33,465 nucleotides of DNA from Polyangia bacterium. GTDB taxonomy: Bacteria; Myxococcota_A; Polyangia; Polyangiales; Sandaracinaceae. Under the pieces are notes generated by a model. That model had not been told where the DNA came from and did not search any database. It saw only the letters and a list, made by a program, of their open reading frames with translations. The position numbers were made by a program, and so were the translations under genes. The stretch covers positions 1 to 33,465 of the forward strand of contig JAUHXR010000064.1 in the NCBI GenBank assembly GCA_030426845.1. The letters are read 5' to 3'. This document shows, one piece after another, positions 2,596 through 32,956 of the stretch; the stretch's first letter is position 1; every line of letters starts with the position of its first letter.

Positions 2596-2626
2596 CCGCC
2601 GCAGCTTGGGTGTAGGGTCGGGCGTC

Positions 2627-4057
2627 GTGCAAGGCCGGCCGCCGCCGCGCGTGTACAGCGTCGCGCAGCTCAACCAGAAGATCGTGCAGAAGCTCGATCG
2701 CTGGGGCGAGGTCTGGGTCGAGGGCGAGGTGAGCGACGTGACCGAGGCCGCGAGCGGGCACGTCTACTTCACCCTGAACGACAGCGTCCGCCCGGCCCAG
2801 CTCCGCCTCGTGATGTTCTCGGGCGACGCACGCCGACGCCGCGCGCGGCTGTCCGAGGGCGAGCGGGTCCGGGTGCGTGGCGGCTTCACCCTCTACGAGC
2901 CGCGCGGCTCGTTCCAGCTCGTGGCCCGGGTCGCGCTCCCCGCGGGCGAGGGCGACCGGCGCGAGCAGCTCGAGCGCCTCAAGAAGAAGCTCCACGCCGA
3001 GGGCCTGTTCGACCCCGCGCGAAAGCGCCGCCTGCCCCGCGTCCCTTCGGTGATCGGGCTCGTCACCAGCCGCGCGGGCGCGGCGTGGCGTGACGTGGTG
3101 CGGGTGGCCCGCGGGCGCGCCCCTGTGCGCCTCGTGCTGAGCGACTGCCGTGTCCAGGGCCCCGACGCGCCGAGCACGATCGTGGCCGCGCTCCGACGGA
3201 TCGCGAAGGTGCCGGGGATCGAGGTGGTGATCCTGACGCGCGGCGGCGGCGCGAGCGACGACCTCGGCGCGTTCAACGACGAGCGGGTCGCCCGCGCGGT
3301 CGCGGCCTGTCCGGTGCCCGTCGTCTCGGGCGTTGGCCACGAGGTGGACGACACGATCGCCGATCTCGTGGCGGACGTGCGGGCGGCGACGCCGTCGAAC
3401 GCGGCCGAGCTCGTGGTCCCGGAGCGCGACGCGCTGGTGGCCGAGCTCCAGGCGATGCACCGCCGGATGGAGCGCGCCCTCGAGCGCGACCTCGGGAGCC
3501 AGCGCCTCGCCCTCGAGCGTCTCGCGCGTCAGCTCCGTGACCCGAGGCGCGCGGCCCACGCGGCGCGGCGTAGCCTCGACCAGGCGCGCGGGCGGCTGCT
3601 CGACGGGGCGCGCGCGTCGCTGCGGGACGCCCACGCGCGGCTGCGGGCCCTCGAGGCGCGGCTGCATCGACAGGCTCCCGGCGCCCGCCTCGCCGCGCAG
3701 CGCGCCCGCTTCGACGCGCTCGCCCAGCGCCTCGCCCGCGTCGGCCCGACCCTCGGCGCGACCGAGCGCCGCGCCCTCGAGGCGGCGACCGGTCGCCTGC
3801 TCCAGGTCACGCGGGCTCGCCTCGAGCGGGAGCGCTCGGGCCTCGGCGCGCGGGTGGCCCGGCTCGACGCGCTGTCGCCGCTCGCGGTGCTGGGGCGCGG
3901 CTACGCGATCGCGCTCAAGGACGGCCGCGCGCTCGTGCGCGCCGGGGACGCGCGGGCCGGCGACCGCCTCGTCCTGCGCCTCGCGGAGGGTCGCCTCGAG
4001 GCCGAGGTCGTGGCGTCGTCCGGGGCGGCCTCGCCCGCGGCGCCGGAGGAGCCGTGA
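2627..4057 (+). CDS. xseA: Exodeoxyribonuclease VII large subunit
   Basis: This is the large subunit of the single-strand-specific exonuclease VII, which trims single-stranded DNA in repair. With the GTG start at 2627 it has 476 residues, close to the family length of about 450. An in-frame TTG at 2606 is an alternative start. The order is as expected. There is an N-terminal OB fold (about 10-105), then the catalytic region with GLVTSRAGAAWRDV, TRGGGASDDLGAFND and SGVGHEVDDTIAD, including the PSNAAE stretch. A long Arg/Leu-rich coiled coil (about 270-400) follows, and finally the LSPLAVLGRGYA element. No small subunit gene (xseB) is visible nearby. The 3' end overlaps aroE by 4 bp (GTGA), so the two are probably translationally coupled. 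Confidence 0.95.
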   Translation: MQGRPPPRVYSVAQLNQKIVQKLDRWGEVWVEGEVSDVTEAASGHVYFTLNDSVRPAQLRLVMFSGDARRRRARLSEGERVRVRGGFTLYEPRGSFQLVARVALPAGEGDRREQLERLKKKLHAEGLFDPARKRRLPRVPSVIGLVTSRAGAAWRDVVRVARGRAPVRLVLSDCRVQGPDAPSTIVAALRRIAKVPGIEVVILTRGGGASDDLGAFNDERVARAVAACPVPVVSGVGHEVDDTIADLVADVRAATPSNAAELVVPERDALVAELQAMHRRMERALERDLGSQRLALERLARQLRDPRRAAHAARRSLDQARGRLLDGARASLRDAHARLRALEARLHRQAPGARLAAQRARFDALAQRLARVGPTLGATERRALEAATGRLLQVTRARLERERSGLGARVARLDALSPLAVLGRGYAIALKDGRALVRAGDARAGDRLVLRLAEGRLEAEVVASSGAASPAAPEEP

Positions 4058-15140: not shown

Positions 15141-15890
15141 ATGGAAATCGATCTTGTCGAGCTCTGGGCCAACATGCCGGCCCTCGTGAAGGCGGTGGTG
15201 GTCGTCCTCACGCTGCAGGCGCTCGCCACCATCTACGTGCTGGTCGACCGGCTCATCCTCCTGATGAGCAGCCAGTCGCGCTCTCGCGCCTTCGCCGCCG
15301 AGGCGGGCGCCAAGCTCGCGGCGGGTCGCTTCTCCGAGGTCGCCGCGATCGCGAAGAAGCACGACAAGAGCCACCTCGCGAGCTTCATCGAGACGGGCGT
15401 CGAGGTCTTCCTCGCGCGCGCGGAGGACGGTCACGACCGCGAGAAGGCGGCCGAGTTCGCCAAGCGCGCGCTCGAGCGCAAGGGCGAGAACCTCTCGGAG
15501 AGCCTCAACCGCGGCCTCAACATCCTCGCGTCGACCGGGTCGACGGCGCCGTTCATCGGCCTGCTCGGCACGGTGCTCGGCATCCTCAACGCCTTCCGCC
15601 TCATCGGCGAGGAGTCGTCGGGCGGGATGGCGACCATCGGCCCGGCGATCTCCGAGGCGCTGGTGGTCACCGGCTACGGCCTCCTGGTCGCGATCCCGAC
15701 GGTGCTGGTGTTCAACTGGCTCAGCGGGAAGATCGCGAAGTACGAGGCGGGCCTCGCCAACGCGGGGAGCGAGCTCGTCGACCAGCTCGAGGCGGACGTC
15801 GCGGTCCAGCCGAAGCAGGGCGCCAAGAAGAACGGCAGCGACGCGAAGGTCCCGGCGGGCACGGGCGCGCCGGCGACCGCGATGGCCTGA
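15141..15890 (+). CDS. exbB: ExbB/TolQ/MotA-family proton channel protein
   Basis: 249 residues with three predicted membrane helices (about 14-38, 130-155 and 175-200). The conserved ExbB/TolQ stretch reads ASTGSTAPFIGLLGTVLGI, followed by TIGPAISEALVVTGYGLLVAIP. A cytoplasmic helical loop lies between helices 1 and 2. The C-terminal tail is Lys/Ala-rich. ExbB forms the pentameric scaffold around ExbD that uses the proton gradient to energise TonB. It lies between tonB and two exbD genes, so the name ExbB is preferred over TolQ. Confidence 0.92.
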   Translation: MEIDLVELWANMPALVKAVVVVLTLQALATIYVLVDRLILLMSSQSRSRAFAAEAGAKLAAGRFSEVAAIAKKHDKSHLASFIETGVEVFLARAEDGHDREKAAEFAKRALERKGENLSESLNRGLNILASTGSTAPFIGLLGTVLGILNAFRLIGEESSGGMATIGPAISEALVVTGYGLLVAIPTVLVFNWLSGKIAKYEAGLANAGSELVDQLEADVAVQPKQGAKKNGSDAKVPAGTGAPATAMA

Positions 15891-15897
15891 GGGACCC

Positions 15898-16344
15898 ATG
15901 GGCCTCGGTCGCAAATCTCGCCAGAAGGCGAGGCCGGAGATGAACGTCACGCCGCTCGTCGACGTGGTGCTGGTGCTCTTGATCATCTTCATGATCGTGA
16001 TCCCGGCGTCGCAGGGCGTGTCGCTCGAGCTCCCCGCGATCGAGAACCCGGACGAGGAGACGGAGGACGGCGTCGAGCCGATCGTCCTGTCGATCACGCG
16101 GAGCGGCGGGCTGTTCCTCGACGACGGGCTGGTCCCCGAGGACGAGCTCGAGGCGCACCTCGTCGCGGCCCACCGCCGCGCGCCGCGGGCCCGCCTGGTG
16201 CTGCGCGGTGACCGCGGCGTCGACTACGTCCGCGCGCGCGAGGCCTTCGCGGCCGCCCAGACCGTCGGCTTCCCCGGGATCTCGCTCCGCGTGAACCACG
16301 ACGAGGGCGACGTCCGCGTCGGCGCCCCCCAGGGGCAGGAGTAG
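15898..16344 (+). CDS. exbD: ExbD/TolR-family protein (first copy)
   Basis: 148 residues with the family hallmark MNVTPLVDVVLVLLIIFM directly after a basic N-terminus. D22 is the proton-carrying aspartate equivalent to E. coli ExbD D25. After one membrane helix comes a periplasmic domain (about 45-140) ending in a charged tail. GAGGGA precedes the start by a few bases. The start lies 7 bp after exbB. Confidence 0.92.
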   Translation: MGLGRKSRQKARPEMNVTPLVDVVLVLLIIFMIVIPASQGVSLELPAIENPDEETEDGVEPIVLSITRSGGLFLDDGLVPEDELEAHLVAAHRRAPRARLVLRGDRGVDYVRAREAFAAAQTVGFPGISLRVNHDEGDVRVGAPQGQE

Positions 16345-16349
16345 CCGCC

Positions 16350-16778
16350 ATGGCGATGGACGTACAGACCGGACCGAAGAAGAAGGGCGCGTCGGCGCCG
16401 CACATGAACGTCACGCCGCTCGTCGACGTGGTGCTCGTGCTGCTGATCATCTTCATGGTCGCGATGCCGGCGATGATGAAGTTCTTCTGGATCCACGTCC
16501 CGCCGGCGAGCCAGGGGCGGGTCGAGCCGAACCCGGACCAGCAGCCGCCGATCGTCGTGACGGTGAACGAAGAGGGGCGGATCCGGATCAACCAGGACGT
16601 CTACGAGGACGCGGTCTTCCCGACCCGGCTCCGCCGCGCGCTGGTCGCGGCCAACGAGCGCAAGATCTACTTCGACGCCGCCGACAACGTCCCTTACGAC
16701 CGCGCGATCGACGCGATGGACCTCGCCCGCGGGGCGGGGGCCGCGCACATCGCGGTGATGACCGAGCGGCTGCGCTGA
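16350..16778 (+). CDS. exbD: ExbD/TolR-family protein (second copy)
   Basis: 142 residues, with the same MNVTPLVDVVLVLLIIFM element as the previous gene; the proton-carrying residue is D26. The periplasmic domain differs clearly from the first copy (DQQPPIVVTVNEEGRI, YEDAVFPTRL), so this is an old duplication, not a recent one. CAGGAG precedes the start. Two ExbD proteins with one ExbB may assemble as a hetero-dimer in the channel, as inferred for other exbBDD operons. Confidence 0.92.
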   Translation: MAMDVQTGPKKKGASAPHMNVTPLVDVVLVLLIIFMVAMPAMMKFFWIHVPPASQGRVEPNPDQQPPIVVTVNEEGRIRINQDVYEDAVFPTRLRRALVAANERKIYFDAADNVPYDRAIDAMDLARGAGAAHIAVMTERLR

Positions 16779-16788
16779 GAGGCTCCTC

Positions 16789-19700
16789 ATGTCTGCGAGA
16801 ACCACCATCGCCCTCCTCGCCTGGGCCGTCGCGCTCCTCCACGCGGCGAGCGCCGCGGCGCAGGACGCCGGCGTGCCGGACGCCGACGCGGGCTACACGG
16901 ACGAGGCGCCCGAGGGCGGCGCGCCGGCCGGCGATGATCCGGGCGAGGGCGACGCCGATGACGCTGACTCCGACGACGCTGACTCCGATGACGCTGACTC
17001 CGACGACGAGGGCGGCGACGACGAGGGCGGCGACTACGGCGACGAGGGCGACGGCGACGTGGTGGACGACCCCGACGCGCCGACCGCCGACACGGGGATC
17101 CGCGGCCGCATCGTCGACGCCCACACCGGCGAGGGGCTCCCGGACGCGGTGGTCATCGCGCGCCGCGAGGGGCAGGTCGAGAACACGGTCACCAACGAGA
17201 CCGGCGGCTACGTCCTCGTGGTCCCGCCCGGGACCTACTCGGTCCTCTCGTACACGGACCTGTACCACGGCGCGCGCATGCGCCGCGTGGTGGTCCGGAG
17301 CGCGCGGTGGCGTGACCTCACCCTGACCCTCGAGCCGATCGACGCCGACGCGGTCGCCGAAGAGGTCGAGATCGTCTACCGCGCCGACACCGCGAGCGCG
17401 GCCGCCCAGGACCAGCTCCGCGCGGCGTCGAGCGGCATCGGCGAGGGCATGGGCTCCGAGCAGATGTCCCAGTCCGGCGCGTCCGACGCGGGGTCCGCGG
17501 CGCGGAACGTCGCGGGCGTGAGCCTCGAGGGCACGAACCTCAACATCCGGGGCCTCGGCGGCGCCTACACCCTCGTGCTCCTCAACGGCGTCCAGCTCCC
17601 GAGCACCGATCCCGACAGCCCGTCGGTCGACCTCGACCTCTTCCCGACGAGCATCATCGACAACCTCTTCGTCTCGAAGGCGTTCCTGCCCAACCTGCCG
17701 GGGAACTTCGCGGGCGGTGTGCTCGACATTCGCACGGTGCGTTTCCCTCGCGAGTTCACGCTCCAGCTCGGGATCGGGACCGGCGCGAACACGCTCAGCA
17801 CGTTCCAGGACCAGCTCACCTACCGCGGCGGCGGCCTCGACGTGCTCGGCATCGACGACGGCACCCGCGCGATGCCGGATGGGCTCGACCAGCGGCTGAC
17901 CGTGTCGGGGCGGTTCGACCCGAACCCCGGCCCCTACATGAGCGACGCCGACATCGAGCCGATCGCCGAGCGATTCCCCAACATCTGGCAGTTCGGCCGC
18001 GCGATGGGCGTCCCCGACGTGGACGTCGAGGCGGTCATGGGGGACTCGTTCGACCTGGGCGGCGACAACCGCTTCGGCTACCTCGTCACCGCGGGGTACG
18101 AGTACCAGCAGCGCCGCGCGGTTGGCGTGAGTCGGCCCCGGCCGACCGCCGTGGTCGAGAACGACCGGCTCCAGGACCTCGTCCAGACGAACGACTACAA
18201 CTACGAGGTCGGCGGCGAGGAGGTGCGGCTCTTCGGCCTCGGGACGGCGAGCCTCGAGCTCGGTCAGGAGCACCTGATCAGCTTCCTGAGCCTCTTCAAC
18301 CGGACCACCACCGACGAGACGAGCCGGACGACCGGCTACGACCAGGACCTCGAGGGCCCGCTCGAGCGTTGGCAGCTCCAGATGGTCTCCCGGACGATGT
18401 GGTTCAACCAGCTCCGCGGAGATCACCGCAACCTGTTCGGTGAGCGGCTCCGACTCCGCTGGAGCGCCTACGGCGCGTACGCGGCGCGCGACGAGCCCGA
18501 CCGCCGGACGGTGGCCTACGGCCAGCAGGGTGACATCAGCGACCGCTGGCTCGAGAAGTCGCAGTCGGGTGAGCGCTTCTACAGCGAGCTCGGGCAGCTG
18601 GACTTCGGCGGGACGCTGGACCTGCGGTTCCCGCTCTGGACGCAGGCCTTCGGTTCGGTCGGCGGGCACCTTCGGACCTCGAGCCGCGACTTCGCGAACC
18701 GTCGCTTCCGCTTCCAGCAGTCGCCGAGCGCAACCGATCAGAACGCCTACACCGCGCCGGTCGAAGAGCTCCTCGGCCCCGACGGCAACGGTCCGCTCAC
18801 GCGGCTGCGCGAGTTCACCCGCGACAACGACAGCTACAGCTCCCAGCAGGACTACTACGCCGGCTACCTGATGCTCGAGACGCCGCTCGGCGACGCGCTC
18901 AGCCTGACCGCGGGCGCGCGGTTCGAGGCGTTTCGGCAGCTCGTCGCGAGCGCGAGCCCCATCGAGGCCGAGCAGCAGATCGACCCCGACCCGGCCGACC
19001 TCACGGACCGGACCGACATGGACGTCCTCCCGGGGGCCTCGCTCCGGCTCGAGGTGGCTGACGGGATGTTCCTGCGCGCCGCCTACGGGATGACCGCGCG
19101 GCGCCCGAACATCCGCGAGCTCGCGCCCTACCAGTACTACGACTTCGTCCGGGACCGGAACATCAACGGGAACCCGATGCTCCAGCGCACGCTGATCCAG
19201 AACGCGGACCTGCGCTGGGAGTGGTTCTTCGACGAGGGCGAGATCCTCGCGTTCAGTGTGTTCTACAAGTACCTCGATCAGCCGATCGAGCTGCAGATCC
19301 AGAACCCGACGACGTACGACTCGGCATTCGTCAACGCGTCCTATGCTCACAATCTGGGTGGCGAGGCCGAGCTTCGGTTCAATTTCCGTCACCTCGCGCC
19401 CGAGCTCAGCTTCCTGAGCTTCTCGGGAACATTCGCGGTGGTGTGGTCGCAGGTGACCTTGCCCGACAGCGTCTCAGGCGCGGTCACCTCGAGCCGGCAG
19501 CTCTTCGGCCAGTCCCCCTACGTCGCGAACCTGTCACTCGTCCTTGACGAGCCCGAGACGGGAATCAGCGCGAGCGTGGTCTACAATCTCACCGGTCCGA
19601 GGTTGACGGATGTCGGGACCCGACAGAACACCGTGCTCCTTCCAAACATCGAGCGATCCGCGTTTCACTCGCTGGACGTGATCCTCGGCTGGCGATTCGA

Positions 19701-19854
19701 AGAGCACTGGCGTCTTCGGCTGAAGTTTCGAAATCTGCTCTTCCAGGCTCAGGAGTTCGTCTTCCAATCCAATGACGACTACGAAGGTGGGTTCCTCACC
19801 CAGAGGATCGACCCCGGAATGTCGGCGAGCCTGAGCCTCGGTTTCGAGTACTGA
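16789..19854 (+). CDS. TonB-dependent outer-membrane receptor with carboxypeptidase-regulatory-like domain
   Basis: 1021 residues. A signal peptide ends ASAAAQ (about residue 25). An Asp/Glu-rich repeat region spans about 28-100. A carboxypeptidase-D regulatory-like beta domain (about 103-185) precedes the plug (about 208-320), which contains NIRGLGGAYTLVLLNGVQLP and NFAGGVLDIRT. The 22-strand barrel fills the rest and ends in the aromatic LSLGFEY typical of outer-membrane proteins. It would import a large or scarce ligand using the TonB-ExbBDD genes directly upstream. The substrate cannot be read from the sequence, and no SusD-like gene is present. Its last ~500 bp have lower GC at third positions than the rest. 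GAGAGG precedes the start. Confidence 0.92.
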   Translation: MSARTTIALLAWAVALLHAASAAAQDAGVPDADAGYTDEAPEGGAPAGDDPGEGDADDADSDDADSDDADSDDEGGDDEGGDYGDEGDGDVVDDPDAPTADTGIRGRIVDAHTGEGLPDAVVIARREGQVENTVTNETGGYVLVVPPGTYSVLSYTDLYHGARMRRVVVRSARWRDLTLTLEPIDADAVAEEVEIVYRADTASAAAQDQLRAASSGIGEGMGSEQMSQSGASDAGSAARNVAGVSLEGTNLNIRGLGGAYTLVLLNGVQLPSTDPDSPSVDLDLFPTSIIDNLFVSKAFLPNLPGNFAGGVLDIRTVRFPREFTLQLGIGTGANTLSTFQDQLTYRGGGLDVLGIDDGTRAMPDGLDQRLTVSGRFDPNPGPYMSDADIEPIAERFPNIWQFGRAMGVPDVDVEAVMGDSFDLGGDNRFGYLVTAGYEYQQRRAVGVSRPRPTAVVENDRLQDLVQTNDYNYEVGGEEVRLFGLGTASLELGQEHLISFLSLFNRTTTDETSRTTGYDQDLEGPLERWQLQMVSRTMWFNQLRGDHRNLFGERLRLRWSAYGAYAARDEPDRRTVAYGQQGDISDRWLEKSQSGERFYSELGQLDFGGTLDLRFPLWTQAFGSVGGHLRTSSRDFANRRFRFQQSPSATDQNAYTAPVEELLGPDGNGPLTRLREFTRDNDSYSSQQDYYAGYLMLETPLGDALSLTAGARFEAFRQLVASASPIEAEQQIDPDPADLTDRTDMDVLPGASLRLEVADGMFLRAAYGMTARRPNIRELAPYQYYDFVRDRNINGNPMLQRTLIQNADLRWEWFFDEGEILAFSVFYKYLDQPIELQIQNPTTYDSAFVNASYAHNLGGEAELRFNFRHLAPELSFLSFSGTFAVVWSQVTLPDSVSGAVTSSRQLFGQSPYVANLSLVLDEPETGISASVVYNLTGPRLTDVGTRQNTVLLPNIERSAFHSLDVILGWRFEEHWRLRLKFRNLLFQAQEFVFQSNDDYEGGFLTQRIDPGMSASLSLGFEY
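16957..17001. repeat. 15-bp tandem repeat in the receptor's acidic region
   Basis: Three 15-bp units (16957-16971, 16972-16986, 16987-17001) read GATGACGCTGACTCC, with GAC for GAT in the middle unit. They encode DDADS repeats. The units use GCT and TCC codons that are rare in neighbouring genes. The copy number can change in frame. Confidence 0.8.
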
Positions 19855-23949: not shown

Positions 23950-24867
23950 TCAGGGGGATGTGTGCGCGCCCACCCGACGCTGCAGATCGAGGGCGCTCCC
24001 GGCGAAGGTGCGCAGCACGCGCATCGCGATGTCGGGGTGGTCCTCCCAGATGTCGATCGTGACGTCGCGCCGGAGCGAGAGGCCGACCACGCCGTCCAGC
24101 ACCTCCGCGCGGAACCAGCGCGGGCGCTGGGCGAGCGACCCGAGGCCGCCGATCATGTCGTTGGCGCCCATGATCCACTCGGCCCCCGCGGGCGTGGTGC
24201 AGCGGACCCGGCCGCACACGAGGGTCACGAAGTGGCTCGCCGGCTCGCCCGCCTCCCAGATCACGTGGCCCGGGTCGTAGCGCAGCTCGTGCGCGTAGCG
24301 CGCGATGACCGCGAGGCTGTCGACCTGCCCGCCCATCGCGAGGTTGTCCCCGAGCGTCAGGATGCGCTCGACCAGATCGAGCGGCCGCGCGGGGCACACC
24401 GGGCCCACCTCCGCCTCGTGGTCGAAGCCCGCGCGGGGCAGCTGAAGCCTCAGGTCGACGCACATCCCGGCCATCGCGCGGAGCACGCGCAGCAACAGGC
24501 CGAAGCGCTCCTCGAAGACCTCCTCCATGTCGGCCGAGGTGATCTCGAGGGCGACCGTGTCCTCGAGCGCCGAGATCTCGTAGCCCTGCTCTCGACCGGA
24601 GAACGCGGCGAGGCCGCCGACCGCGCTCTGCTCGCCGAAGCGCCCCGTCTCGACGCCGTCGGCCACGACCCGGACCTCCCCCGAGACGATCATCCACAGC
24701 CGGGCGGCGGGGTCGTCGGCCGGCTGAAGGATCTCGCCGCGAGCGAACGCGCGCACCCGGGTCGCGCTCGCGAGGATCGCGAGGTCACCCGCCGAGGCGT
24801 CGCTCCAGCCGGGGAAGCCGCGCATCGTGACCATGCGCTCGACGCGTCCGAGCGTGACGTCAGGCAC
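23950..24867 (-). CDS. Protein with two cyclic-nucleotide-binding-like domains
   Basis: The GTG at 24867 gives 305 residues; an ATG at 24834 is an alternative. Two CRP-like beta-roll domains are seen at about 27-130 (VRAFARGEILQPADDPAARLWMIVSGEVRVV) and about 184-290 (ELRYDPGHVIWEAGEPASHFVTLVCGRVR). There is no helix-turn-helix or catalytic domain. The phosphate-binding cassettes lack the canonical Glu...Arg arrangement, most clearly in the first domain, so cAMP binding is uncertain. The start overlaps the last 8 bp of the NTT/HEAT gene, implying tight co-translation. It may be a regulatory subunit of that carrier. Confidence 0.85.
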   Translation of the reverse strand: MPDVTLGRVERMVTMRGFPGWSDASAGDLAILASATRVRAFARGEILQPADDPAARLWMIVSGEVRVVADGVETGRFGEQSAVGGLAAFSGREQGYEISALEDTVALEITSADMEEVFEERFGLLLRVLRAMAGMCVDLRLQLPRAGFDHEAEVGPVCPARPLDLVERILTLGDNLAMGGQVDSLAVIARYAHELRYDPGHVIWEAGEPASHFVTLVCGRVRCTTPAGAEWIMGANDMIGGLGSLAQRPRWFRAEVLDGVVGLSLRRDVTIDIWEDHPDIAMRVLRTFAGSALDLQRRVGAHTSP

Positions 24868-27580
24868 CGCGGGCCTCCGGCTCCGGCCGCAGCGTCTCGA
24901 TCGCGCGCTCCAGCACCTCCGCCACGTGGACGTCCGCCGCGGCGAGCAGCGGCCCGAGGTGGTCGGCGACCTCGGCCGCGCCCACCTCGGCCGCGTGGTA
25001 CGCGGTGATGCAGCGCACCGCCTCGCTGTGGTCCGACACCAGCTCGACGAGGAGCGCCTCGTAGCGCTCGGGGAGCGGCTCGTCCGGGAGCACCGCCCGC
25101 GCCCGCGCCAGGCGAACGGCGTCGTCCCCGTCACCGAGCAGCGCGTCGAGCGCCGGCGCGAGCGCGCCGTCCACCAGCGCGGTCACCAGCTCGCGCCCCT
25201 CCGCGCGACGGCGCCGATCCTGGTGGCGGAGCGAATGGCTGATGGTGCGCAGGTCCTCGCCCGGGTGATAGAGCGCGATCAGGCGCACGGTGCGGTCGAT
25301 GGCCTGCCACTCCTTCTCGGCGAGCACCCGCGCGAGCAGGGCGCCGCCGCGCGTCGGTCGCTCGGCCCCGCGGGCCTCCACCGCGAGGCGGATGCCCAGC
25401 ACGCGGACCGCGCGCCGGAGGTTCTTCTCCCAGAGCGCGCGCACCTCGGCGTAGGGGAAGCGCAGCTCGAGCTCGGCCTCTCGGAGGGCGCGCAGGCCGC
25501 GCAGGCACTTGTAGCGGATCCAGCCGTCGGGCTCGTGCGCGAGGTGGGCGAAGAGGACGTCCGCTGCTTCGGGCGTCGCGAAGCGGCTGATCGAGCGCGG
25601 CAGGTGGCCGCGGACCCCACGCGGGAGCGACGCCGACGTCAGGCCGTCGCGCAGCGCGGTGAAGGCGGGCGCGCCGATGGCGATCAGGGCGTCGCGCGCG
25701 TCGGCCCGCGCCCCGCGCGGACCGAGCCAACCGATCAGGGTGGGGATCGCCGCCTCGAGCCTCAGCGCGCCGAACGCCCGGGCGAGCTCGCGCCGCACCT
25801 CGGCGGACGCGTCCTGCCCGGCGATCTGGAGGAGCCGCGAGCCGTGCGACGGATCCCGCTGCAGGCGGACCGCGCGCGCGAGGGCGAGGTGGGTGCGGTC
25901 GTCCCCCGAGGCGACGCACTCGTCGAGCTCGGACGTGGCCGCGCCGTCGTCGTCCAGCCCGCGCGAGACGAGGGCGACGAGGACCGCCGCGCGGATCGGG
26001 CGGCCGTGTCCGTGCTCGAGCTCGCCCCGCAGCTCGGCCGGGCCGAGCAGGCTCGCGAGCGCGTGCATCGCCGCCGCCTGGATCTCCTCGTCGTCCAGCT
26101 CGAGGAGCCGGCGCGCGATGGGGAGGTGATCGGTGCGCCTATGGTCGGCGAAGATCTCGAGCGCGCGCAGCACCACCGCGCGCGACGGGTGGTAGAGCAG
26201 GAGCGCGGGGATCAGGTTGGCGCGCCGGTAGTCCACGAGGACCTCGAGCGTCGCGAGCACCTCGTCGTCGCGCTGGCTGTTGAGCGCGCCGATGAGCGAC
26301 TCGAGCGAGCCGAGGTCGAGCGCGGGCACCTCGACGCGGGTCTCCACCGCGCCGCGGCGGAGGTTCTCGCGGAACAGGTCGAGGTAGCGGCCGCGCAGGC
26401 TCAGCGCGAGGGCCGCGCCGGCCGCGCCGAGGGCGAGGGCCGCCGCGGCGAGCCCGCTCGAGCCGACCCCGGCCGCGGTCACCGCGAGGATCGCGAGGGA
26501 GCCCGCCGCCTGACCGCCTCGCTGGCCGAGCGCGTCGATGAGGGTCTTGTAGCGATCGCGGACCGCCTTCTGCAGCGGCAGGTACATCAGCTCGAAGGCG
26601 CTCCGGTGCAGCGAGTGGCGGAGCGCGCCGTCGGCCCCTCGGAGGACGGCCGCGGCGATGAGCCCTCCGCTCACCAGCACGCCGACCGAGCCGAGCGCGA
26701 ACGAGGCGGGCAAGACGGCCAGCGCCCGGGTCGCGCCGAGCGAGCTGAGGAGGCGCGGGGCGACGAAGAGCTGGACGAGGAGCGAGACCGCGTTGAGGAC
26801 CACGTAGTAGACGCCGAAGAACTCGGCGAGCTGGCCCGGCTCCAGCGTCCGATCGATCGTCGCCTTGAACAGGTAGTCGACGAGGACCGCGGTGACCGAG
26901 GTGATCGCGACGAGCGCGAGCAGCCGGTAGACGTAGGTGACCTGCGCGCGGTCGCCGCCCTCGCGCGCGGGGCGAGCGCCGCGGGCCGACGCGTCGGGCG
27001 GGGGCACCCTGGGGAAGACGAGGACGGGCACGACGCCGGTGAGCGCGAGGAGCGCGCCGCCGAAGAGCAGCAGCGTCCGGGCGTCGAGCGCGTCCTGCGC
27101 GAAGGCGGCCACGGCGGCCCCCGAGACCGCGCCGAGCGAGCCGCCCGCCGCGATCCGCGAGTAGAGCTGCTTGGCCTCGGCGACGGTGAAGATGTCGGCG
27201 AGGAGGCGCCAGAACTGGGCGACCGCGAAGGTCGCGACGAGGCCTGTCCACACGTAGAAGGCGTGGGGCACCCACGTCGCGGCGCTGCCAAAGAGGACGT
27301 AGAACCCGGCCGTGCCGGCGGCGGAGAGCGCGAGGGTGGCGGCGGCGAGGCGCCGGCCGTCGAAGCGGCGCGCGAGGCGCTGGTCGAGCTGGGCGGCGAG
27401 CCACGCCGCGAGCGCGATCGCGAGGTAGGTGAACGGGAGCTGGTCGGCCGAGAGCTGCGACAGGAACAGCGCGTCGCGCGCGACCTCGAGGATGGTGTGC
27501 CCGGCGAGGAGCAGGAACAGCGTGGCGCCGGCCCCCACCGCGTGGCGCATGTTCTGGACCTCGATGTCGAGCCAGCGCAT
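24860..27580 (-). CDS. NTT/MFS-type nucleotide-transporter-like protein fused to HEAT-like repeats
   Basis: 906 residues. The first ~405 form a twelve-helix membrane domain resembling the ADP/ATP (NTT, TLC) carriers of obligate intracellular bacteria and plastids; indicative stretches are FWRLLADIFTVAEAKQLYSRIAAGGSLGA and LHRSAFELMYLPLQKAVRDRYKTLIDALGQRGGQ. The C-terminal half (about 415-890) is soluble and helical with HEAT-like repeats (RRELARAFGALRLEAAIPTLIGWLG, DARDALIAIGAPAFTALRDGL). A free-living myxobacterium has no obvious need for ATP import, so the transported molecule is open. The following CNB-domain gene overlaps its stop. The architecture is clear; the substrate is not. Confidence 0.82.
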   Translation of the reverse strand: MRWLDIEVQNMRHAVGAGATLFLLLAGHTILEVARDALFLSQLSADQLPFTYLAIALAAWLAAQLDQRLARRFDGRRLAAATLALSAAGTAGFYVLFGSAATWVPHAFYVWTGLVATFAVAQFWRLLADIFTVAEAKQLYSRIAAGGSLGAVSGAAVAAFAQDALDARTLLLFGGALLALTGVVPVLVFPRVPPPDASARGARPAREGGDRAQVTYVYRLLALVAITSVTAVLVDYLFKATIDRTLEPGQLAEFFGVYYVVLNAVSLLVQLFVAPRLLSSLGATRALAVLPASFALGSVGVLVSGGLIAAAVLRGADGALRHSLHRSAFELMYLPLQKAVRDRYKTLIDALGQRGGQAAGSLAILAVTAAGVGSSGLAAAALALGAAGAALALSLRGRYLDLFRENLRRGAVETRVEVPALDLGSLESLIGALNSQRDDEVLATLEVLVDYRRANLIPALLLYHPSRAVVLRALEIFADHRRTDHLPIARRLLELDDEEIQAAAMHALASLLGPAELRGELEHGHGRPIRAAVLVALVSRGLDDDGAATSELDECVASGDDRTHLALARAVRLQRDPSHGSRLLQIAGQDASAEVRRELARAFGALRLEAAIPTLIGWLGPRGARADARDALIAIGAPAFTALRDGLTSASLPRGVRGHLPRSISRFATPEAADVLFAHLAHEPDGWIRYKCLRGLRALREAELELRFPYAEVRALWEKNLRRAVRVLGIRLAVEARGAERPTRGGALLARVLAEKEWQAIDRTVRLIALYHPGEDLRTISHSLRHQDRRRRAEGRELVTALVDGALAPALDALLGDGDDAVRLARARAVLPDEPLPERYEALLVELVSDHSEAVRCITAYHAAEVGAAEVADHLGPLLAAADVHVAEVLERAIETLRPEPEARGA

Positions 27581-27628: not shown

Positions 27629-28249
27629 TCAGGGGGTCGGGCGCAGGCGGACGGTCGAGCCGTTCGCCTCGACGACCTCGAACACCTCGACGGTGTCCTC
27701 GCTCGCGTCGCGGAGCCGGTAGGTCAGCGTCAGCGTCTGGCCGGAGACCGACCAGGTGCCCTGGACCTCGTAGTGCGCGTCGTTCGGCGCGAGCACGTTG
27801 GTGGTCACGGTCGGAGGTCCGTCCTCGGTCGCGTCGTAGAAGGCGAGCGTCCGGCGGAAGCGCGCGGGACCCAGCTCGCGGTCCGCGGGCACGAACGTGA
27901 GGTCCGAGCCCTGGCTCGCCGAGGCGTCGTGCTGCCAGCGCCCGAGGATCTGCACGTCGGTGGAGCAGGTGGGCGCCGACGGGTTGGCCGGTCCGATGCA
28001 GTAGGTGTCCATCATGCAGCCCGTCGCGCACTCGCCCCCCGTCCAGTTGCACCCGTCGGCGCCGAGGCACGAGGTGCAGTCGGTGTGGGCCCCGCAGCCG
28101 GTGGCCGACCCGGTCTCGGTCGACCCGGTCTCGGTCGACCCGGTCTCGGTCGTCTCGGTCTCGGTCGTCTCGGTAGGGGCGGGATCCTGCTGCGATCCGC
28201 ACGCGGCGAGCAGGCTGAGCAGGGCGATCGTGGCGAAGAGGTGGCGCAT
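27629..28249 (-). CDS. Lipoprotein with PSI/plexin-like cysteine module
   Basis: The ATG at 28249 gives 206 residues. The lipobox LLAAC places the lipidated cysteine at C17. A Thr/Glu/Ser repeat linker (TETTETETTETGSTETGS) runs to about residue 48. A cysteine cluster at about 52-85 (CGAHTDCTSCLGADGCNW and C-x3-C...C) follows the PSI-domain spacing found in extracellular eukaryotic proteins such as plexins and integrins. The C-terminal domain (about 95-206) begins ILGRWQHD and looks like a small beta barrel or lipocalin-like fold. The frame continues open into the antisense of the next gene, but the lipobox marks the true start. Confidence 0.78.
   Translation of the reverse strand: MRHLFATIALLSLLAACGSQQDPAPTETTETETTETGSTETGSTETGSATGCGAHTDCTSCLGADGCNWTGGECATGCMMDTYCIGPANPSAPTCSTDVQILGRWQHDASASQGSDLTFVPADRELGPARFRRTLAFYDATEDGPPTVTTNVLAPNDAHYEVQGTWSVSGQTLTLTYRLRDASEDTVEVFEVVEANGSTVRLRPTP
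28107..28174. repeat. 15-bp and shorter tandem repeats encoding the TET/GST linker
   Basis: Three 15-bp units GACCCGGTCTCGGTC (28107-28121, 28122-28136, 28137-28151) are followed by shorter GTCTCGGTC copies. Together they encode a Thr/Glu/Ser/Gly linker just after the lipidated cysteine of the PSI-like lipoprotein. Confidence 0.8.
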
Positions 28250-28372
28250 GGGGGTTGGACCGGCTCCAGGGGGATGTCTTGGTGGCGGAGGGTACACGGG
28301 TTGGGTGAGCGTGTGCTGTCCGTCCTTCCGCGGCGACCTGGTCTCACGGCAGCCTGCTAGACTCCGCGCCCC

Positions 28373-31300
28373 ATGGAAGCACGCGGCGACTACATCGGAG
28401 GCCGGTTCCACCCCCCCACGGGCGAGGCCTTCACCAGCCATGATCCGGCCCACGACCACCGGGTCGTCCTCGAGAGCGCGGGGGCGCCCGAGCGGGTGGC
28501 GCTCGCCTGCGAGGCGGCGGCCGAGGCCCAGCCCGCGTGGGCCGCGCTCTCGATGGCCGATCGGCTCGAGGCGCTGCGTCGCTTCCGCGCCGCGATCGCC
28601 GCGCGCGCGGACGAGCTCTCCGAGGCGATCACGCGCGAGATGGGCAAGATCCGCAGCGAGGCGCGCGTCGAGGTGGGCGCGCTCGTCGGTCGGTTCGCGC
28701 TCGTGGAGGGCCAGGTCCAGCGCGACCTCGCGGGCGGCCCGCTCGCCGGCTTCGATCGGGAGGTCGTCCGCTACCGTCCGCACGGCGTGGTCGGGGTGCT
28801 CGGGCCGTTCAACTTCCCGCTCCACCTCTGCCACGCGCACGCGCTCCCCGCGCTCGCGCTCGGCAACGCGGTCGTGATCAAGCCGAGCGAGGTCACCCCC
28901 CTCGCCGGCCAGCGCTACGCCGAGGCGGCCGACGCCGCGGGCCTGCCGGCCGGCGTGCTCAACGTCGTGCAGGGCGGCGGCGCGGTCGGCGCGGCGCTGA
29001 CCGCCGACCCGCGCGTGCACGGCCTCGCGTTCACCGGCTCCTGGGAGACGGGCCGCCGAATTCGCGCCGCCACCGTCGATCGGCCCGACGTCCTCGTCGC
29101 GCTCGAGATGGGGGGCAAGAACATGTGCGTCGTCCGCGAGGACGCGGAGCTGCGGCAGGCGATCCACGAGGTCGTCACGAGCGGCTACCTCACGACCGGC
29201 CAGCGCTGCACCTGCTCGGACCGGGTGCTCGTGCACGCCTCGCGCGCGGACGCGCTGATCGACGGCCTCCGCGCCGCGCTGGACGCGCTGTCGTTCGGTG
29301 ACCCCGAGGACCCCGCGAGCTTCGCCGGGCCCCTCGCCCACCGCGCCTCGGCCGAGCGGTTCCTCGCCGCGCTCGAGGTCGCGCGGGCCGGCGGCGCCGA
29401 GCCGATCGTGGCCGGCGGCGCGCGCCCGGGCGGCGCCTTCGTCGCGCCCTCGCTCCACCGCCTCCCCGCGGGCCAGCACCACGTCGCGGGCTACACCGAC
29501 ACCGAGCTGTTCGGGCCCGACCTCTGCGTCGAGGTCTTCGACGACGACGACGAGGCGATCGCGGCCCTCAACGGGACGCCCTTCGGCTTCGCGATCAGCG
29601 TGTTCACCCGGGACCTCGAGGCGTTCGGCCGCTACGAGCGCGAGGTGCGGACGGGGATCCTCAACCGCAACCGCAGCACCAACAAGGCGAGCCCGCGGCT
29701 GCCCTTCGGCGGGGTGAAGAAGAGCGGCAACTTCCGCCCGGCCGGCGCGTGGGCGGGGCGCAACCTCGTCTACGTCATGTCGCAGATCCACAACGACGCG
29801 GGCGTCTACGACCGGCACGACATGATCGAGCCCACGCTGCCCGCGGCCGATCTGGACCGGCTCGAGGCGCAGCACGACGCGGAGGAGCGGGCCGAGGCGG
29901 CGCGCACCCTGCTCGACGCGCCGCGGCCGCTGAAGGTGAGCCTCCCGCCGGGCGGCGCGCTCCCGGACAGCGACGCGTGGCTCGAGCGCTACTACGCGGG
30001 CGGGCGGTACGTGCGCGGCGAGAAGAAGCCGCCGGTGTTCGACCACCTCCGGAGCGCGGGCCCGTGGCTCACCTCGATCGACGAGCCGCCGCTGTCGGTG
30101 CTCGACGCGATGAGCCAGACCGCGACCCTCCCGGCCGGCTTCGCGCCCGACGCGGTGGTGAAGGCCTACGTCGAGGGCGGCTTCGGCGACGCGCTGCTCG
30201 CCAACACCGATACGACCCTGCCGGGTGATCCCTACGTCGAGGCCTACGCCGAGACCCTGCGCCGGATCGCGCCCGGCCTGCCCACGGTCTGCTTCGCGAA
30301 CAGCGGCGCGGAGGCCAACGAGAAGGCCTACGCGCTCTGCGCGCTCCAGGCGCCCGCGTTGGCCCGCAAGCTCCTCGCGTTCGAGGGGAGCTTCCACGGC
30401 CGGACGCTGCTCGCGCTCTACGCGAGCCACAACCCGTCCAAGCGCGCGCCGTTCGAGATCGCGGGCTACGAGGTCGACTTCGCGCCGGCCCCGGCCCGCG
30501 CGCACTTCGAGGACGGCGAGCCGGCCGAGCCGGCGGAGTGGACCGCGGTGTGGGGCGCGGGCGACGCGGCCGGGGCGCGGGCGCGCTGGGCCGAGAGCGA
30601 GGACCCGGGCCTCGCGGCCGAGACGCGGGCCCTCGCCGAGGTCGCCGACGCGCTCGCGTTGGGCGAGCACTTCGCGGTGGTGGTCGAGCCGATGCAGTCC
30701 GAGGGCGGCGACCGCTACCTCACCGCGCGCTTCCACCGCGCGCTCCGGCTGCTCACGCGCGCCCGCCACGTCGCGCTCGTGATGGACGAGGTCCAGTGTG
30801 GCCACGGCCTCGGCGGCACGTTCCTCTGGCACCCCCGCTTCGGCTACGTGACGGCCGACGGCGGCGAGGACGGGCCCGACTGCGTCTGCTTCGCGAAGCG
30901 CGCGCAGGTCGGCGTGTGCCTGAGCCGCTTCGAGGACCCGGAGCCGACGAGCGCCTTCGCGGCGTCGCTGGTGCGCGGCCGCCTCCACGCCGAGGGGATC
31001 GACCCGGCCGACGCGCGCCGCGTCGAGGAGCTCGTCGCGCCGCGGCTGCGCGAGCTCGAGCGGCGCTGGGGCCACCGCATCGGCAACCCGCGGAGCCTCG
31101 GCTACGCGCTCGCGTTCGACCTCGCCGACGCCGACGAGCTCAACGCCTACCTCGGCCAGCGCTTCTGGCGCGGCGTGGTGGTGTTCGGCGCGGGCAGCCG
31201 GACGGTGCGCTACCGCCTCAGCTCGAGCTTCGGAGAGCGCGAGATCGCGCTGCTCTTCGAGAGCATCCACCGCTCCCTCGCGTGGCTCGACGCGCACCCG

Positions 31301-32956
31301 CGCAAGCGCCCGCCCGCGTGGGAGGACCTCGAGCCGGCCCCGCGCGAGGATCGCGTCCGCGCGCCCTACCGGGTGCGCGTCGCGTCGCCCGACGAGGTGG
31401 ACGCGCTGATGCCCGACGTGCTCGCGCTCGAGGCGCGGGTCTACGAGCCGGCGCGCCGCGACTCGGAAGAGACGTTGCGCAAGGCCTTCGGCCCGGGCGG
31501 GGTCGCCGCGGTGGCCGAGCTGACCGAGGGCGACGCCACCCGCCTCGTCGGGATCGCCTTCGCCGCGCCGGCCGACGCGATGGCCCACGTCGAGGGCGTG
31601 GCCGAGGATCCGCTCCGCGCCGACACGCTCTACTCGCTCTCGATCACCGTCGACCCGGAGCTCCAGGGGCACGGCATCGGGCGCGCGCTGAAGCTCGCGC
31701 AGCTCCGCGCCGCGCGTGACCTGACGCGGGACGACGGCGCGCCGCGCTACCACCACGCGAGCGGGCGCAACCGGCTGCCCGACGCGTCCACGATGTCCCG
31801 CCTCAACGACTCGCTCGGCGCCTACACCGTCGCGACCCTCGCCGGTCAGTACGAGGGCGACGGGGTGGCCCGCTACTACCGCCTGCCGCTGCGGGCCTTC
31901 GTCCCGGCCGCGCCCATCGACGACGCGCCGCGCCCCGTCGACGTCGCCTCGGGCCTGGCTCGGCCGCTCGCCGCGCCGCCGGCGTCGCTCCGCGCGCTCC
32001 GCGACGCGGGCGGCCTCTACGGGCCCGCGGTCACCAAGGTGACGCTGCTCAACTACCTCACCCCGGCCGCGGTCCGCGCGACCGAGCACGTCGCGGCGCT
32101 CGTGCCGGAGCTGCCCCACGCGTTCCTCTGCTCGAGCCGCGACGAGACGGTCGACAAGTCGATCAAGATGCTGCGTCACCACCGCACCGAGGCGAGCGTC
32201 GTCATCGGCTTCGAGGGCGCCTACCACGGGCACACCGCGGCCGGCGCGCGGTCGCTGAGCGATCCGTCCACCCACGCCCAGGGGCGCCCCTACTTCGACT
32301 GGCCGCGCGTGCCGCATCCGGCCGACGGAGTCGACGCCGCGGTGGAGGGGCTCCGCGCCGCGATCGCGAGCGCGGGCGGGGCCGAGCGCGTCCTCGGGGT
32401 CTACGTGGCGCCGGTCCAGGAGCGGACGGGGCGCGTGATCCCGGCGGCGTTCTGGGACGCCCTCCAGGCGCTGCGCGCCGAGACCTCGATCCCGGTGGTC
32501 GTCGACGAGACCGCGTCGGCCTACTACCGCTCGGGCCGCGGCGCCTTCGCGGCGAGCGGCGGCGGCTTCCTGCCGGACGCGATGATCTGGTGGACCGGCG
32601 GCCAGGCGGGCTTCGTGCACTGCTCGAGCGCGCTCAACGTCGACAAGCCCTTCACGCTCGTGAGCACGTGGGACGGCGACGAGCTGAGCCTCGTGCAGAT
32701 GCACCACCAGCTCCGCGCGGCCCGTCGGATCGACGTCGGCGCGGCGTCCGCGGCGCTGGAAGACGCCTTGTCGACTGTCACGAGCGACGGGCTCGGCCTC
32801 TACCGGGTGATCGACGATCCGGACGGCGAGGTCCTGGCGCGGCTGAAGGCGGCGGGCGTCGTCGCGCGCCGGTTCGCCAACGGGCGGGTCCCGATCGTGC
32901 CGGCGCTCGACGCCGCGGCCGAGGTCGCGGACGCGCTCCGCGCCGCGCTCGCGTGA
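28373..32956 (+). CDS. Four-module fusion: aldehyde dehydrogenase, class III aminotransferase, GNAT acetyltransferase, degenerate aminotransferase
   Basis: 1527 residues. Module 1 (about 1-475) is an AstD-like aldehyde dehydrogenase with GPFNFP, KPSE, E245 in LEMGGKN and catalytic C279 in TTGQRCTC. Module 2 (about 560-985) is a class III aminotransferase resembling lysine 6-aminotransferases: NSGAEA (643-648), D805 in VMDEVQ, and Schiff-base K842 in CFAKRAQVG. Module 3 (about 999-1178) is a GNAT with acetyl-CoA motif LQGHGIGRAL (from 1097). Module 4 (about 1210-1527) aligns with module 2, but its lysine is T1408 (WWTGGQAG), its SGAEA is SRDET, and D1378 remains. Together these would acylate, transaminate and oxidise a diamine or basic amino acid, as separate enzymes do in the AST pathway. 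The real substrate is unknown. It is divergent from the PSI-like lipoprotein gene. Confidence 0.9.
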   Translation: MEARGDYIGGRFHPPTGEAFTSHDPAHDHRVVLESAGAPERVALACEAAAEAQPAWAALSMADRLEALRRFRAAIAARADELSEAITREMGKIRSEARVEVGALVGRFALVEGQVQRDLAGGPLAGFDREVVRYRPHGVVGVLGPFNFPLHLCHAHALPALALGNAVVIKPSEVTPLAGQRYAEAADAAGLPAGVLNVVQGGGAVGAALTADPRVHGLAFTGSWETGRRIRAATVDRPDVLVALEMGGKNMCVVREDAELRQAIHEVVTSGYLTTGQRCTCSDRVLVHASRADALIDGLRAALDALSFGDPEDPASFAGPLAHRASAERFLAALEVARAGGAEPIVAGGARPGGAFVAPSLHRLPAGQHHVAGYTDTELFGPDLCVEVFDDDDEAIAALNGTPFGFAISVFTRDLEAFGRYEREVRTGILNRNRSTNKASPRLPFGGVKKSGNFRPAGAWAGRNLVYVMSQIHNDAGVYDRHDMIEPTLPAADLDRLEAQHDAEERAEAARTLLDAPRPLKVSLPPGGALPDSDAWLERYYAGGRYVRGEKKPPVFDHLRSAGPWLTSIDEPPLSVLDAMSQTATLPAGFAPDAVVKAYVEGGFGDALLANTDTTLPGDPYVEAYAETLRRIAPGLPTVCFANSGAEANEKAYALCALQAPALARKLLAFEGSFHGRTLLALYASHNPSKRAPFEIAGYEVDFAPAPARAHFEDGEPAEPAEWTAVWGAGDAAGARARWAESEDPGLAAETRALAEVADALALGEHFAVVVEPMQSEGGDRYLTARFHRALRLLTRARHVALVMDEVQCGHGLGGTFLWHPRFGYVTADGGEDGPDCVCFAKRAQVGVCLSRFEDPEPTSAFAASLVRGRLHAEGIDPADARRVEELVAPRLRELERRWGHRIGNPRSLGYALAFDLADADELNAYLGQRFWRGVVVFGAGSRTVRYRLSSSFGEREIALLFESIHRSLAWLDAHPRKRPPAWEDLEPAPREDRVRAPYRVRVASPDEVDALMPDVLALEARVYEPARRDSEETLRKAFGPGGVAAVAELTEGDATRLVGIAFAAPADAMAHVEGVAEDPLRADTLYSLSITVDPELQGHGIGRALKLAQLRAARDLTRDDGAPRYHHASGRNRLPDASTMSRLNDSLGAYTVATLAGQYEGDGVARYYRLPLRAFVPAAPIDDAPRPVDVASGLARPLAAPPASLRALRDAGGLYGPAVTKVTLLNYLTPAAVRATEHVAALVPELPHAFLCSSRDETVDKSIKMLRHHRTEASVVIGFEGAYHGHTAAGARSLSDPSTHAQGRPYFDWPRVPHPADGVDAAVEGLRAAIASAGGAERVLGVYVAPVQERTGRVIPAAFWDALQALRAETSIPVVVDETASAYYRSGRGAFAASGGGFLPDAMIWWTGGQAGFVHCSSALNVDKPFTLVSTWDGDELSLVQMHHQLRAARRIDVGAASAALEDALSTVTSDGLGLYRVIDDPDGEVLARLKAAGVVARRFANGRVPIVPALDAAAEVADALRAALA

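Follow-up and report, generated by a model that had tools for sequence, protein, structure and literature searches.

The gene at positions 28373-32956 (+) of the window (the whole stretch of DNA that was analysed, a 33,465-nucleotide contig of a Polyangia bacterium) encodes a fusion protein that is real, conserved and undescribed as far as the open literature shows, its component families being known. What is new is the architecture, which includes a dead aminotransferase half, and the logic of the operon to which the gene belongs. Judging from sequence, we put at roughly 40% the probability that this is the four-module enzyme of an AST-like catabolic operon acting on beta-lysine. The fuller claim is more tentative: an undescribed aerobic pathway from lysine through beta-lysine to 3-oxoadipate, with N-acyl protection, that would occur in two phyla and be run by a multi-enzyme whose aminotransferase is a single-chain pseudo-heterodimer, a live half and a dead half together building its one live site. 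The open-access literature yielded nothing relevant on the fusion, on 3-aminoadipate together with beta-lysine, on an acetamidobutyryl-CoA deacetylase or on lysine degradation in Bdellovibrio; since most subscription papers lay outside its scope, this absence is weak evidence.

The fusion gene and its modules

The frame opens with ATG, runs without interruption for 1527 codons and closes with a stop codon at 32954-32956. The single 1527-residue polypeptide proposed by the first-pass annotation is thus borne out as one uninterrupted gene, and the residues it named all lie where it placed them: E245 (LEMGG), C279 (GQRC), D805 (DEVQ), K842 (FAKRAQ) and the QGHGIG loop (1098). Its module list, comprising an aldehyde dehydrogenase (ALDH), an aminotransferase and a GNAT acyltransferase in one chain, stands as far as it goes but overlooked a fourth module, a degenerate second aminotransferase. 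The order is ALDH (1-480), AT1 (493-980), GNAT (1005-1181) and AT2 (1190-1527), with the following coordinates:

28373-29812 (+): ALDH module, residues 1-480; Pfam Aldedh, AstD-like, with catalytic Glu245 and Cys279
29849-31312 (+): AT1, class-III aminotransferase, residues 493-980; Aminotran_3, catalytically complete
30896-30898 (+): Lys842, the PLP Schiff-base lysine of AT1, conserved in 26/26 sequences
31385-31915 (+): GNAT module, residues 1005-1181; QGHGIG acyl-CoA loop and predicted structure
31940-32953 (+): AT2, degenerate aminotransferase, residues 1190-1527; Aminotran_3 (7.9e-14), conservation and alignments
32666-32668 (+): Thr1432 of STWDGDE in AT2, invariant in 26/26; its motif suggests correspondence to the GabT Thr

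An architecture search with the full-length protein, the check suggested at first pass, recovered the same chain elsewhere. Four other genomes encode full-length orthologues (71, 59, 54 and 56% identity), one of these genomes being a single 10.3 Mb contig, and further full-length chains lie on additional named contigs. A misassembly or chance frame is therefore excluded, as is the possibility of an assembly artefact joining separate genes.

Users of simple gene finders should be aware that these can be misled by a minus-strand ORF of 1692 codons (27629-32707). The part of it that is antisense to the fusion gene translates as Arg-rich sequence, and it looks like a high-GC shadow frame; it was rejected as a true gene because the plus frame has the full-length orthologues.

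The ALDH module belongs to its superfamily by profile (Pfam Aldedh, E 4.5e-113) and by catalytic Cys279 and Glu245. Its closest PDB relative is 3ju8, an N-succinylglutamate semialdehyde dehydrogenase (AstD), and the AstD models are also its best NCBIfam matches, both below the curated cut-off (TIGR03240, 356.6 of 579.3 bits; PRK09457, 372.5 of 514 bits), so that membership of AstD itself is not reached. The GNAT module has the fold and acyl-CoA loop of its superfamily, with a Pfam Acetyltransf_1 score just under the cut-off (20.1 against 20.7 bits). Its predicted structure (pLDDT 93) matches Ard1/RimI-type N-alpha-acetyltransferases with Z of about 17 over about 144 residues (rmsd 2.0-2.4), and besides QGHGIG it carries invariant GRNR (at 1131) and YE..R motifs.

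A 685-aa ALDH-GNAT fusion without aminotransferase modules is encoded in another genome, G010 (L070:6733-8790, -), where it lies next to an ABC importer of the betaine/choline type. G010 does not encode the 462-aa KamA paralogue discussed below, and its ALDH-GNAT pair may have a different substrate.

The two aminotransferase domains

Conservation was assessed in an alignment of 26 sequences from Myxococcota and Bdellovibrionota. AT1 is a class-III aminotransferase by profile (Aminotran_3, E 1.6e-47; 121 bits against a cut-off of 30.5), and all 26 sequences keep Lys842, Asp805, Gln808, Arg677, Glu772, Glu777 and Arg946/948. Among NCBIfam models LAT_fam is the best for AT1, with a score that lies far below the LAT cut-off (TIGR03251, 96 of 520.8 bits). 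The closest structural match of AT1 is the lysine epsilon-aminotransferase of M. tuberculosis (2cin/2jjh), which aligns with residues 39-481 of the AT1 model over 400 residues (Z 35.6, rmsd 2.4); GABA aminotransferases score lower, with Z of about 32-34.

AT2 also scores above the Aminotran_3 cut-off (E 7.9e-14; 51.6 against 30.5 bits), but it does not qualify as an active class-III aminotransferase: the PLP lysine position is never Lys (26/26) and the pyridine Asp is gone in 25/26. What AT2 does keep, in all 26 sequences, is the STWDGDE motif. In E. coli GabT (GABA aminotransferase), the PLP phosphate of one subunit is contacted by Thr297 of the other (PMC9309667). We infer that STWDGDE marks the place of this Thr, with which a subunit in this class binds the phosphate of its partner's PLP, and we predict that Thr1432 extends in trans to the phosphate of the PLP bound by AT1.

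At the phosphate-binding Thr position AT1 has Ala, Val, Leu or Ser. Across the 26 sequences the losses are thus complementary, AT1 lacking the Thr and AT2 the PLP lysine, so that AT2 can supply what AT1 lacks. We read AT1 and AT2 as a putative single-chain pseudo-heterodimer with one active site. The predicted AT1-GNAT-AT2 model (1035 residues; pLDDT 90.4, pTM 0.92) places the domains in a fixed arrangement and would fit a fixed AT1-AT2 packing.

Several known proteins are worth comparing. With LAT (M. tuberculosis Rv3290c) and type-I GABA aminotransferases, AT1 shares the fold, the Lys, Asp and Arg residues, and the EPxQSEGGD and DEVQ motifs, but the Thr that acts in trans is missing from it, and its partner within the chain is a dead AT2. 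Serine palmitoyltransferase LCB1/LCB2 is likewise a PLP fold-type-I pair of which one partner has no catalytic lysine; it belongs, however, to another enzyme class and is made of separate subunits, whereas the fusion carries both halves on a single polypeptide, separated by the GNAT. We know of no GNAT-AT2 arrangement reported for PigE of prodigiosin synthesis. PigE resembles the fusion in being large and containing a class-III aminotransferase domain (4ppm), but its solved part has a single intact aminotransferase domain. If correct, our reading would provide a clear case of a fold-type-I aminotransferase that has become a pseudo-dimer with a single chain and a single site, its halves flanking a second enzyme.

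Distribution and gene neighbourhood

GTDB genomes were scanned with the AT1-GNAT-AT2 alignment. Among the best 80 matches, whole-length relatives come from Myxococcota (Sandaracinus, Nannocystis, Enhygromyxa, Kofleriaceae and many MAGs) and Bdellovibrionota (Bdellovibrio, Bacteriovorax, Halobacteriovorax), the other rows being weak and mostly partial aminotransferase matches. Of 53 loci (some species are represented in both collections), 22 have the ALDH fused to the rest and 7 have it as a neighbouring gene of its own; in 21 it is absent within 700 bp, and 3 are cut off by a contig edge. AT1-GNAT-AT2 should therefore be regarded as the core, to which the ALDH has been joined in some lineages, and the hand-over of the aldehyde within one chain proposed at first pass would not be a property of the whole family. 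Several Myxococcota with an unfused core encode an AstD-like ALDH elsewhere in the genome (42-44% identical), while no ALDH was found at E<=1e-85 anywhere in the genomes of Nannocystis and most core-bearing Bdellovibrionota. In the genomes of family f26, the neighbourhood of the stand-alone AstD-like ALDH holds no relatives of the other operon genes, and hence no split version there.

Length variants of 1700-1760 aa (L075, L076, L103, L109, L110, L117) contain an additional stretch of about 70-100 residues between the ALDH and AT1; some have one between AT1 and GNAT as well.

Where the downstream genes are present, the order is constant across both phyla: [ALDH>]AT1>GNAT>AT2>C45>AT3>ScoA>ScoB. 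Counted over those of the 53 loci that could be tested, a C45 autoproteolytic acyltransferase/hydrolase is found in 34/49, a further class-III aminotransferase (AT3) in 30/47, and the 3-oxoacid CoA-transferase subunits ScoA and ScoB in 30/46 and 15/41, ScoB sometimes on the opposite strand. The C45 and CoA-transferase families pass curated cut-offs; the Gly-Cys nucleophile region of C45 aligns with 2x1d, and the closest match of AT3 is a taurine:2-oxoglutarate aminotransferase. The window ends 509 bp past the fusion gene, and the draft genome it comes from has the fusion, C45 and CoA-transferase genes on three contigs; in the closest relative, 3 kb separate the fusion from the C45 and aminotransferase genes downstream.

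The operon contains no thiolase, the neighbours examined include no AstA or AstE relative, and the conserved neighbourhood holds neither a transporter nor a biosynthetic partner. Eight loci, mostly from Bdellovibrionota (L099, L100, L102, L104, L105, L106, L108, L112), carry a D-Ala-D-Ala-ligase-like ATP-grasp gene immediately ahead of the operon, in several behind threonyl-tRNA synthetase. A divergent AraC regulator with a cupin domain (L092:8898-9878) and a divergent helix-turn-helix protein with a cupin-like end (L103:7339-8034) adjoin the operon at two loci and may sense its substrate.

A lysine 2,3-aminomutase (KamA) homologue occurs in 29/31 core-positive and 54/206 core-negative Myxococcota (Fisher p 3.6e-13, uncorrected for phylogeny). 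It is also present in 22/26 further core-bearing genomes, a few of them from the same species as the first set, including 7/9 titled as Bdellovibrionota or genera thereof. The protein, of 462 aa, scores 232 bits against the solved aminomutase 2a5h and keeps its radical-SAM CxxxCxxC, GVND and VVDAPGGGG motifs. It passes the general model TIGR00238 (241.5 against 199.2 bits) and falls short of the lysine 2,3-aminomutase model TIGR03820 (251.9 of 525.4 bits), so its lysine specificity is not proven. KamA was not found beside the operon in any locus examined.

Proposed pathway

A 3-oxoacid CoA-transferase implies a beta-oxo acid, and this in turn a beta-amino acid before it, for which lysine 2,3-aminomutase would be the obvious source. 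In the scheme that we prefer, the KamA homologue would convert lysine to beta-lysine, and the GNAT would acylate one amino group (probably N3), preventing later cyclisation of the aldehyde. AT1, with Thr1432 of AT2 completing its PLP site, would then remove the N6 amine, and the ALDH would oxidise the semialdehyde to 3-acylaminoadipate. Deacylation by the C45 enzyme and transamination by AT3 would give 3-oxoadipate, which the CoA-transferase would activate for thiolysis to succinyl-CoA and acetyl-CoA.

The scheme resembles the AST pathway (AstA, AstC, AstD, AstE). Both would combine acyltransfer, transamination, semialdehyde oxidation and deacylation, the ALDH is closest to AstD, and the C45, second aminotransferase and CoA-transferase genes downstream make an AST-like catabolic logic plausible. 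The differences should also be kept in mind: AST uses separate proteins where here there is one chain, the GNAT and C45 come from families other than AstA and AstE, the aminotransferase is LAT/GABA-T-like, a 3-oxoacid CoA-transferase follows and the AstD cut-offs are not reached. By curated tests the fusion falls outside AstD and LAT, and it probably works like AST.

The first-pass annotation had read the protein as an assembly line of AST type, with alpha-lysine, ornithine or a polyamine as its substrate. The fusion is genuine, and the AstD-like ALDH, LAT-like AT1 and GNAT offer the same module chemistry, but the reading was incomplete and its choice of substrates now appears distinctly unlikely. 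Products of the glutamate, 2-aminoadipate or GABA type need no 3-oxoacid CoA-transferase, and the co-occurrence with KamA would go unexplained; against ornithine or a polyamine, these two features point to a beta-amino acid derived from lysine.

Somewhat better placed, if still unlikely, is an N6-acetyl-beta-lysine/GABA route, reportedly described by the Barker laboratory around 1980 in a Pseudomonas. Here the GNAT would acetylate N6, AT1 would remove N3 to give 3-oxo-6-acetamidohexanoate, and cleavage would lead to 4-acetamidobutyryl-CoA, which C45 would deacetylate, leaving AT3 as GABA transaminase and the ALDH as succinate-semialdehyde dehydrogenase (SSADH). Every operon gene finds a role, KamA co-occurrence fits equally well, the C45 relative 2x1d is an acyl-CoA/amide enzyme and AT1 also resembles GABA transaminases. 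Family scores, however, make the ALDH AstD-like and not SSADH-like. The module has LCHAH and LTTGQRC in place of ITRK and FRNAGQTC, the SSADH segments that we take to hold two carboxylate-binding arginines, and thus appears to lack both; none of the ALDHs of its own genome that were checked as an SSADH reference was suitable. The fused steps would moreover be non-consecutive, and the ALDH stands at the operon head next to AT1 and GNAT. Both beta-lysine schemes fit. We prefer the AST-like one, in which the fused modules would catalyse three successive steps, the ALDH would serve as an AstD-like N-acylamino semialdehyde dehydrogenase, and the order of the downstream genes would match that of the reactions. 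BKACE (PF05853), considered as a discriminator between the two, is present in 178/237 Myxococcota and uninformative.

We regard as improbable a biosynthetic or detoxifying role, in which C45 would transfer the acyl group and the product would be an N-acyl beta-amino acid serving as an osmolyte or secondary metabolite. C45 does include acyl-CoA:6-aminopenicillanate acyltransferase, and N-acetyl-beta-lysine is a known compatible solute (PMC12776343). Oxidation, a CoA-transferase and two aminotransferases look degradative, however, and the lack of a conserved transporter or biosynthetic partner nearby speaks against such a role.

The AST-like route on beta-lysine has its own points against it. 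These are the unlinked KamA and its score below TIGR03820, the 54 genomes with KamA and no core, the core genomes without a close ALDH, the G010 fusion, the missing operon thiolase and the scatter of the fusion, C45 and CoA-transferase over three contigs in the window's own genome. Known beta-lysine catabolism, that is, lysine 2,3-aminomutase routes and lysine fermentation (PMC3149608), shares the aminomutase homologue, a CoA-transferase and an aminotransferase; it differs in that acyl protection, the ALDH and C45 are found here and no beta-lysine 5,6-aminomutase occurs in the conserved neighbourhood. If the route is correct, it would be a new lysine-degradation pathway for Myxococcota and Bdellovibrionota, which live largely on the protein of other cells, shared by predatory and social bacteria of two phyla, and steps of beta-lysine metabolism that have no assigned gene would gain candidates.

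Elsewhere in the window, the divergent neighbour of the fusion gene (24860-27580, -) encodes a 906-aa protein with an MFS/ADP-ATP translocase-like N-terminus and HEAT repeats. ExbB, ExbD and a 1021-aa TonB-dependent receptor with a carboxypeptidase-regulatory domain (15141-19854, +) are likely to form an uptake unit, and the Exonuclease VII large subunit (xseA) is encoded at 2606-4057 (+).
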